From: Desulfurivibrio dismutans
Lineage (GTDB): Bacteria; Desulfobacterota; Desulfobulbia; Desulfobulbales; Desulfurivibrionaceae
Direction of reading: 5' to 3'
Length of the DNA stretch: 64,000 nucleotides
NCBI RefSeq assembly: GCF_029210385.1
Contig: NZ_JARGDQ010000009.1
Coordinates: 62,001-126,000 of the forward strand
The position numbers were made by a program, and so were the translations under genes. Below the pieces are notes generated by a model, which was not told the origin of the DNA, searched no databases, and saw only the letters and a program-made list of their open reading frames with translations. Within the stretch, counting starts at the first letter, position 1. Each line of letters opens with the position of its first letter. Positions 28,291-57,472 of the stretch are shown here, in pieces.

Positions 28291-28715
28291 GTTTCGTCTC
28301 CTGCGGCGGGGCCAGGCGCCGTTATGGGCATACGAATGTTGCCAGGTTTCATAGTGTAGTAATGTATTGCATAAAATAAAAAGTACAAGCCTAGTTTGCC
28401 GCCGCCGCTTTTTTTGCGCATTTTTGCCGCTGTAAATTTTGTGCAAAAACCACCTTGACACCGGTTGTTTGTATTGCCTATCCTGATCGTTGGGTACATG
28501 GTGGCATGTATATGCTGCATCACCGTTTCTGCGACAATTTGTCACTTCCTGCTTTTGGGCGGGGCGTGCTAGATTCCTACCAGGTAATACTGGTGAGCAG
28601 TCCCTTCTGTTCGTCACTATCGAAAAATACAGACCGCATGCTAAGGAGGTGATGGCGCAGGTAGTTTAGTTCAGATCCGGGGTAATTGCTGTTTAAACAG
28701 AGAGGAGGAAGATTA
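28291..28715. other. Divergent promoter region between moaA and the cytochrome gene
   Basis: 425 bases. The rightward promoter at 28455-28484 would give a leader of over 220 bases for the cytochrome. The leader contains an isolated AAGGAGGTGATG with a 5-codon ORF (28650 region). I compared the moaA side with the Moco riboswitch as I remember it and saw no match. Confidence 0.5.
28455..28484 (+). promoter_or_regulatory. Sigma-70 promoter for the multiheme cytochrome
   Basis: Perfect TTGACA at 28455-28460, an 18-base spacer, then TATCCT. The predicted leader exceeds 220 bases. Confidence 0.6.
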
Positions 28716-29948
28716 ATGAAACATTGGATAATCGGTCTGGTCGTCGCCGCTTTTGCCCTGCCGGGCATGGCGTTGGCCGGCCAGAAAGCCACCACCATCG
28801 ACGAGCTGGCGCAGATGTTCGACGCCTCGCGCTGCAAGGCTTGTCATGGCGAAGTCTACAAACAGTGGGAGGTGTCCCATCACGCCCGTCCTCTGATGGG
28901 GGTGCATGGCGGCCTCAAGGATACGCCTTTGGCCATGGCCGGGGCCACTCCCTGGTCGCCGGAGCACCCGTCCGAGGCCACCCTGGAAACCTTTCCCTGC
29001 TTTAAATGCCACCTGCCCCAGGCCCTGACCCACGCCGAGGATTCGGTGGCGGCGGAATACGCCCAGGCCCTGCTGGACCAGGACCGGCGCAAGATCGGGC
29101 AGCTTAAGATCACCTGTATCGTTTGCCACAACAATAAGGCGATCATCCATCGTTTGCAGGAAGGTGAGCCCGAGCCCAACGTGCTTTACGGCACTAGGGA
29201 CATTCCCAATCATCCCGATCCGGTCTTCACCGAGATTCGCCAAAGCCCGGTGATGAAGGAGCCCCTGTTCTGCGGCCAGTGCCACGGCGTCGGGGTTAAC
29301 CTGGAGTTCGGCAACCCGGTGCAGTGCGCCACTCTTTACGGCAGCTATCAGCACGCCTACATTCCCGCCGGCGGTACCCAGTCCTGCCAGGACTGTCATC
29401 TTTATCCGAAGAAAGACGGCTATGCCGACCACCGGATGCTGCCCGACTGGAACGACACCGAGCTGATGAGCCAGCGCCTGGCCGAGTCCCTGTCTTTTGA
29501 TATGCAGGCCATGGGTTACGAGTGGCTGCGGGCCGGCGGTGATCGGCCCAACCGGCTGGTGATTGAAACCAAGATCGATTCCAAGGCCGGGCACCGCATC
29601 CCCGACGGCTGACCGTCTCACAATCGAGTGGTCCTGGAAGTGACCGCAAAAGATTTGGACGGAAAGCTGATTGCCCAAGATTCCCGCCACTACCATCCCC
29701 AGGCGACCACCCAGCGGGGCGCCAACGTGATGGTTTACGGCGCCCAATGGAAGGCCAGCTATGTGCGCGACACCAGCATCCAGCCCTTCCGCACCAAGGA
29801 GGAAACCTTCGAGTTCCTGCTGCCGGAAGGCACTCGCTGTGCCGATGTGGAGGTGGAGTTGCGTTATGAACTGGGTAACCCCGATCAGATTATCCCCATT
29901 CATCGCCGCACCAAAAGGGTAACCCTGGATCGTTGCCCACCCCTATAA
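28716..29948 (+). CDS. Five-heme cytochrome c, probable selenoprotein (in-frame TGA)
   Basis: 410-residue reading from ATG 28716 (GAGGAGGAAG upstream) with one in-frame TGA at 29610-29612. A Sec signal peptide (cleaved after ALAG, about residue 22) precedes five CxxCH heme sites: CKACH, CFKCH, CIVCH, CGQCH and CQDCH. The TGA follows GHRIPDG and is followed in the same frame by PSHNRVVLEV and another 101 residues of good coding sequence ending in TAA at 29948. Selenocysteine insertion is the simplest reading. A weak hairpin (GUGGUC, 8-base loop with GG, GACCGC) starts 15 bases after the TGA. If TGA is a real stop, the product is 298 aa. Likely a periplasmic electron carrier. Confidence 0.8.
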
Positions 29949-29950
29949 AC

Positions 29951-30059
29951 GGTAAACGAACGCTGGCACCGCATCTTGCGGCGATCATCCCGACTTGCGT
30001 ACTGATGTACGCGGCGCCGGGCTGCTTGCCGCAACCTGCGGCACCAGCGCTCGTTTACC
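29951..30059 (-). repeat. Palindromic repeat family, copy B (inverted)
   Basis: Opposite orientation to copy A. Outer arms GGTAAACGAACGCTGG and CCAGCGCTCGTTTACC pair with one mismatch. The core GCGTAC-TGAT-GTACGC is shared. It starts 2 bases after the cytochrome stop. A terminator follows at 30114. Confidence 0.85.
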
Positions 30060-30113
30060 GGTCCTGGCCAGGGCGTGTGTTGATGGTTTGAACGTGCTCT
30101 GGTCGCACCGAAT

Positions 30114-30243: not shown

Positions 30244-30352
30244 GGTAAACGGACGATAGTGCCGCAGGTTGCGGCAAGCGCCCCGGCGCCGCGTACTCCA
30301 GTACGCAAGCCGGGGCGATCGCCGCAAGATGCGGTGCTAGCGTCCGTTTACC
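30244..30352 (+). repeat. Palindromic repeat family, copy C
   Basis: Outer arms GGTAAACGGACG and CGTCCGTTTACC pair; the core is GCGTAC-TCCA-GTACGC. The right arm encodes the last residues (VNGR) and the TAG stop of the activase gene on the minus strand. Copies B and C face each other across the terminator. Confidence 0.88.
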
Positions 30353-56338: not shown

Positions 56339-57472
56339 TTACCGTTGCATTTCCCGCAGCACTTTTTCGCCCAGCTTCTCGTCCTGCCAGGTGATCTGGC
56401 GGATCATCTCGAAGTTGAGGTCGATGGCCGCCTGGGGCAGGCGGGCAAAGCCCAGGGACTCTGAAAGTTCCTGGCCGTCGCGGATGGCCCAGATCAGGAA
56501 CTTCAGCAGCTCCTCGGCCTGGGCGCGGTTGGCAATGGCCCGGTTCTGGTCCAGGTTCTGATAGACCAGCATCCAGGCGAAACCGGCGGCGGGGTAGCCG
56601 TCCGGAGCCGGGGTGTTGGTGAATAGCACCCGGGTGTCGGCGGGCAGGTCGATATCGGCGGCGGCGGTGGTGGCGGCGTAGCTGGGCTCGATGGTGTTGC
56701 CCGCGGCGTTGACCACGTAGCCGTAGCTGATATCGCTGAGGATGGCGTAGGAGAGCGAGTTGTAACCCAGAGCGCCGGGGGTGTTCATTACTACCCCGGC
56801 CACCCCTTCGTTGCCGTTGCCGCCTACCCCGGTGGGCCAGTTGACGCTGGTGGCGTAACCCACCTTCTTGGCCCATTCATCGGACACCCGGGTCAGGTAG
56901 CTGGTCCAGACATTGGTGGTGCCGGAACCGTCGGAGCGGTGCACGATGGTGACGGGCAGGGGCGGCAGCCGCAGGCCGGGGTTGAGTTCGGCAATGCGGG
57001 GATCGTTCCAGCGCTTGATCTTGCCCAGGAAAAGGTCCACCAGCAGGTCGCCGTCAAACACCAAGCCTTTTTTAACCCCGGGCAGATTGTAGGTGGGCAC
57101 CACGTCGGCCAGGGTGATGGGCAGGTTGAAGGCGGCCCCGCCGGTGCGCTGCTCAATGTCGGCCATGATCTGGTCGGAGAGAAAGGCCTCGGACATGCCG
57201 AACATCACGGTCTGCTCGATAAACTGCCGAATGCCGCCGCCGGAGCCGATGGACTGGTAGTTGACGGTCACCCGGCCGCCGGTCTTGGTCCGGTACTCAT
57301 CGGCCATGGCGGTGACCAGGGGGGCCGGGAAGGTGGCCCCGGCGCCCAGGATGTCGGTGCGCTGAGCCAGAGCCGAACCGGCCCCCAGGCCCAGAAAAAT
57401 CAGGGTGGCGGCCGCTGCGGCCACCAGTTTGGTCTTTAAAAAAGACCGGCGAGGTTGATGTTGCTGGTTCAT
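56339..57472 (-). CDS. pstS: Phosphate-binding protein PstS
   Basis: 377 aa from ATG 57472 (AAGGAG upstream). The signal sequence begins MNQQHQPRRSFLKTKL, a twin-arginine-like RRSFLK followed by a hydrophobic core and AQ-type cleavage (ALAQ). Binding-site motifs: GAGATFPAPL (about 43-52), SIGSGGG and HRSDGSGTT. Periplasmic phosphate receptor for PstCAB. The Tat-like leader is unusual for PstS. Confidence 0.95.
   Translation of the reverse strand: MNQQHQPRRSFLKTKLVAAAAATLIFLGLGAGSALAQRTDILGAGATFPAPLVTAMADEYRTKTGGRVTVNYQSIGSGGGIRQFIEQTVMFGMSEAFLSDQIMADIEQRTGGAAFNLPITLADVVPTYNLPGVKKGLVFDGDLLVDLFLGKIKRWNDPRIAELNPGLRLPPLPVTIVHRSDGSGTTNVWTSYLTRVSDEWAKKVGYATSVNWPTGVGGNGNEGVAGVVMNTPGALGYNSLSYAILSDISYGYVVNAAGNTIEPSYAATTAAADIDLPADTRVLFTNTPAPDGYPAAGFAWMLVYQNLDQNRAIANRAQAEELLKFLIWAIRDGQELSESLGFARLPQAAIDLNFEMIRQITWQDEKLGEKVLREMQR

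Follow-up and report, generated by a model that had tools for sequence, protein, structure and literature searches.

An open reading frame on the forward strand of the Desulfurivibrio dismutans genome passes through five heme-binding motifs, reaches a single in-frame TGA and then stays open beyond it; it lies within the window, i.e., the whole stretch of 64,000 nucleotides that was analysed. The question raised by this locus is whether the TGA ends a five-heme cytochrome, or whether it is translated into selenocysteine (Sec) and the protein continues. As judged by comparison with homologues, there is very little doubt that the gene encodes an exported five-heme cytochrome of the ExtKL/MccSep kind, in which the UGA at 29610–29612 would be recoded as Sec by means of SelB, tRNA-Sec and a SECIS element to give a product of 410 residues. 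The features on which this reading is built are as follows.

28700–28711, forward strand: ribosome-binding site region (GAGAGGAGGAAG), 5′ of ATG 28716, read from the sequence
28716–29948, forward strand: predicted extKL-type pentaheme cytochrome c selenoprotein gene, from the NF040886 match, the PDB MccSep chains and the stops in the frame
28716–28781, forward strand: putative signal peptide MKHWIIGLVVAAFALPGMALAG for periplasmic export, recognised by eye from the sequence pattern
28833–29399, forward strand: five CXXCH motifs for the attachment of heme c, with their first bases at 28833, 28998, 29115, 29271 and 29385
29610–29612, forward strand: in-frame TGA, read as Sec299 in the motif GHRIPDG-U-PSHNR, from the homologue column and the aligned PDB chains
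29613–29945, forward strand: 111-codon tail, made only when the TGA is read through, conserved and under purifying selection
29628–29647, forward strand: convincing candidate for a bacterial SECIS hairpin, GTGGTC-CTGGAAGT-GACCGC, from its fold, codon constraint and loss in sense-codon homologues

First of all, only two stops are found in the frame that begins at ATG 28716, namely the TGA at 29610–29612 and the TAA at 29946–29948, the latter being the terminal stop of a 410-aa product with Sec at residue 299. The start codon is preceded by GAGAGGAGGAA (GAGGAGG), and the number of CXXCH motifs is also five in nearly every ExtKL homologue. The preliminary description of this DNA had claimed that the frame is open on both sides of one TGA, and that 111 codons running to a TAA follow a start resembling a signal peptide and five hemes up to GHRIPDG; both statements hold. 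The tail starts with PSHNRVVLEVTAKDLDGKL, and a GTG at 29628 begins a 106-aa ORF inside its region. In terms of composition, 3% of Markov resamples keep a tail of such length open, which makes its openness only mildly unlikely, and therefore the comparison with homologues had to decide.

The homologue search covered 395 genomes of the phylum. A match above the cut-off was present in 39 of them, and in almost every case it contained one in-frame TGA and no more. Among 51 distinct homologues, the codon at the TGA column is TGA in 44, TGT (Cys) in four, and GTT, ATC and ATG in one each; that is to say, 48 of the 51 have Sec or Cys at this site, as had been expected from an alignment if the TGA encodes Sec. 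The TGA is kept in a same-genus relative (96% identical), in a Desulfobulbaceae MAG (64% identity) and in a Nitrospirota MAG (about 60%), and genomes of many families share the identical codon. In the maximum-likelihood tree, all the main clades are dominated by Sec and Cys appears in scattered places, while the homologues with a sense codon are fused across the column and always have the long form. Moreover, the comparison of the window gene with the same-genus relative gave a dN of 0.025 and a dS of 0.65 before the TGA, and a dN of 0.026 and a dS of 0.33 after it, so that purifying selection acts on the tail as it does on the part before the TGA, and the coding character that had been attributed to it is confirmed. 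This homology, namely the predominance of TGA at the column together with purifying selection on the tail, is decisive.

Some individual homologues deserve separate mention. The tandem ExtKL paralogues at L052 (genome G027) and L040/L053 (G203) carry Ile or Val at the Sec position (PDS-V/I-SSNHR) and their SECIS has decayed; each lies beside another ExtKL copy, which in G027 is of the Cys type. In a Cys-type ExtKL homologue on contig C11 of G289 (L055), the frame is interrupted by a single TAA that precedes the Cys column; the gene is perhaps a pseudogene or affected by a sequencing error. This TAA was considered as a stop at the Sec column and ruled out, the codon there being TGT and the stop lying elsewhere.

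When read with Sec, the full protein matches the NCBIfam model NF040886, “multiheme c-type cytochrome (seleno)protein ExtKL”, with an E value of 8e-145 and 482.7 bits (cut-off 250), over positions 28–422 of the 423 in the profile, which means that one profile spans both the part 5′ and the part 3′ of the TGA. Matches in the PDB include chains of the “Multiheme cytochrome c selenoprotein (MccSep)” and of its U325A mutant (E 1e-65; 9wt8/9wt9 and related entries), in which position 299 aligns with X of the wild-type chain (GHSIPDGXPTPNR) and with A of the mutant chain. The features of the ExtKL family are found here in the score above the cut-off, the five CXXCH motifs, the export signal (by eye) and the Sec after GHRIPDG. 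It has been proposed earlier that extKL of Geobacter sulfurreducens encodes a selenoprotein (PMC5877670; PMC6148476), and ExtKL is included among the prokaryotic selenoproteins in a 2026 review (PMC13188914). The extKL-type gene therefore belongs to a selenoprotein family that is already named, catalogued and structurally solved; what is new here is that the gene stands alone and that its SECIS is backed by evidence at the level of codons.

Among the known relatives, ExtKL of G. sulfurreducens (GSU2937-2936) likewise has five hemes, Sec after GHxIPDG and a Sec-dependent C-terminal domain, but its gene sits in the extHIJKLMNOPQS operon, whereas the D. dismutans gene stands alone. MccSep (PDB 9wt8/9wt9/9wta/9wtb/9wtc) aligns over residues 22–372 with the variant residue at the Sec299 column, but it is a distant homologue (226 bits), and its motif is of the type found in the ext-operon subclade (as at L028), not the GHRIPDGUPSHNR type of the window. 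The pentaheme cytochrome c552 (PDB 5ze8) gives a weak match that includes the tail motif hxmPtGxP.xN, but it is without Sec and its aligned residue is Ala. The small pentaheme cytochromes (sPHC) of cable bacteria are structural homologues of ExtKL located outside an ext cluster (PMC11976967), and one of them has an extKL-like two-gene layout; unlike the gene studied here, they are described as two genes, and selenocysteine is mentioned zero times in PMC11976967. The tail may form an immunoglobulin-like domain, as does that of the ExtKL model presented in the same paper.

The hairpin at 29628–29647 begins 15 nt 3′ of the TGA, and its best fold consists of the 6-bp stem and two further pairs flanking a bulged U, with an apical loop GGA and a distance of 23 nt from the TGA to the loop. 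By the criteria attributed to Zhang and Gladyshev (2005), the loop of a bacterial SECIS has G at positions 1 and 2 and the element lies about 16–37 nt from the UGA, and both the loop and the spacing found here agree with them. Compared with shuffled sequences, the folding energy has a z of −0.7 to −2.5, which is weak evidence alone, since pairing is already favoured by the peptide VVLEVTA, which is conserved: synonymous resampling leads one to expect about 4.5 of the 6 pairs, against 5.5 observed. The MFE profile around the TGA is suggestive and blurred by codon composition. Therefore, with a weak fold and pairs that the protein explains, the case for the SECIS rests on codon constraint. The synonymous-codon tests of single genes are individually weak (P mostly 0.1–0.3), and therefore the codon columns were pooled, in a test that ignores relatedness and takes the other columns of the extKL-type gene as its control. 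Of 289 scored codon columns in the TGA genes, +6, +8, +10, +7 and +11 rank first to fifth in synonymous constraint; these five are exactly the hairpin codons, and columns +5, +12 and +13 from the TGA are unconstrained. The complete set of six pairs is present in 32 of the 44 TGA genes versus none of the seven sense-codon genes, five TGA homologues retain only two to four of the six pairs, and in the Cys homologue at L052 the peptide LILDVTA is kept with codons that break the hairpin. The codon evidence is convincing for a SECIS. The preliminary description had reported a 6-bp stem with a GG loop 15 nt after the TGA, which is exactly what was found, and had called it not textbook, which undersells a hairpin with the strongest synonymous-site constraint in the gene and with the loop and spacing of a bacterial SECIS. 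At the Rfam gathering threshold no match was found in the 64-kb window, this search not being the test for the SECIS here.

The genome (completeness 99.99%) contains the whole of the Sec machinery, on whose presence the Sec reading had been made to depend: selA (638 bits), selB (358 bits), selD (383 bits) and selC, a tRNA-Sec with the anticodon UCA (tca) that was identified by Rfam (73 bits) and ARAGORN. A second candidate for selC, the tRNA-Ser (tga) at 56425 of the window, was rejected, being a normal serine tRNA. An in-frame TGA also occurs close to the start of the selD gene itself (L071; TVKAAG*AAKLGPGDLD), and a Sec-containing SelD is a known arrangement; therefore, the decoding of UGA as Sec is probably used elsewhere in the genome of D. 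dismutans too.

In general, the decoding of UGA as Sec competes with release factor 2. It is thus conceivable, if unlikely, that both products are used, the full-length protein being replaced in part, under selenium shortage, by a 298-residue five-heme form that arises from partial termination at the UGA; all five hemes are located before the UGA, and the truncated form could still bind heme. However, nothing points to selection for a short form in its own right, and the sense-codon homologues never occur as one. It is highly improbable that the TGA is a real stop that ends a 298-residue cytochrome, with the 111 codons forming a separate small gene or decayed remains, in line with the old annotation as ExtK plus ExtL. 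The ORF from GTG 29628 could serve as such a gene, and extK and extL are described as separated by a TGA (PMC6148476), but the Sec or Cys at the column, the fusion of the sense homologues through it, the single profile over both halves, the PDB chain that spans the TGA site and the purifying selection on the 3′ part all speak against it. More improbable still is a UGA read otherwise than as Sec, through read-through with Trp or a changed code, for which there is no specific support: the commonest alternative residue in the 51 homologues is Cys and never Trp, a tRNA-Sec with a UCA anticodon and the full machinery are present, and the SECIS is at the expected place. Finally, a sequencing error or a nonsense mutation in a pseudogene, suggested by the single base that separates TGA from Cys TGT or Trp TGG, is refuted by a TGA conserved in the same-genus genome and in many families, including the Nitrospirota MAG, by the intact frame and by the low dN/dS. 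The reading of TGA 29610 as Sec, first put forward from the letters of the DNA, is supported by the homologues, the sel genes, the constraint on the hairpin, NF040886 and the MccSep chains.

The window gene is flanked by moaA/MOSC genes on one side and by a large CoA-dehydratase-activase-like gene on the other, and ORFs of matching size and start occur on both flanks in the same-genus genome. Location in an ext operon (the selenite/tellurite operon), which is typical of Geobacter and not required by NF040886, was not found for the window gene; for comparison, extH, extI, extKL, extM, extN, extO/P and extS stand in a row at L084. In the tree, the window gene belongs to a different subclade from such full ext-operon loci (e.g., L028 and L084). 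On another contig of its own genome (C23; L086:2069-5701), extH, a single 801-aa frame that comprises two rhodanese units of the ExtH type, is followed directly by extI, without extKL or ExtM alongside, and this pair is located behind a sigma-54 response regulator; the same-genus genome G195 has the same arrangement of extH and extI matches. No ExtM match was found in the D. dismutans genome. ExtKL and extHI could nevertheless function jointly despite their separate contigs. Near extHI there is also an integron integrase (L086:8408-9805; TIGR02249, 466 bits), possibly of a chromosomal integron. Downstream of the extKL-type gene, a palindromic repeat of about 110 bp with GGTAAACG...CGTTTACC arms occurs in two inverted copies (29951–30060 and 30244–30352) that flank a terminator-like hairpin. 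It has at least 44 matches across the genome (40 of 207 candidates scored), one copy adjoins the selC locus L002 as seen by eye, and it looks like a REP/MITE-type element.

Comparison shows that the gene belongs to the family, that its UGA is conserved, that the genome has the Sec machinery and that a SECIS follows the UGA, and from these findings a mechanism can be proposed. SelB and tRNA-Sec, together with the hairpin 15 nt downstream, would decode the UGA as Sec, and a full-length exported pentaheme cytochrome would result, with Sec299 right after GHRIPDG, where the heme domain meets the C-terminal domain. Sec299 may be close to a heme and take part in catalysis, presumably a multi-electron reduction. 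The substrate would most likely be an oxyanion such as selenite, reduced in the periplasm, by analogy with the work on ext operons, outside which the window gene lies; the published mutant phenotype concerns extI, and the work on extKL is called preliminary there (PMC5877670). A single-sequence AlphaFold model had a pLDDT of 33 and was not used for a fold search. It is a tentative and rather doubtful idea that the subclade outside any ext operon, found in genomes that lack ExtM, has been recruited to a different electron chain or substrate with Sec still catalytic.

In summary, a Sec-containing multiheme cytochrome is confirmed by comparison in a genome in which standard gene calling would cut the gene short or divide it, and the codon-constraint map provides a clean SECIS consensus for the ExtKL family. 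Natural controls for the contribution of Sec are available in the copies where it has given way to Cys, Val or Ile and the hairpin has decayed, and the family ties selenocysteine chemistry to periplasmic electron transfer.
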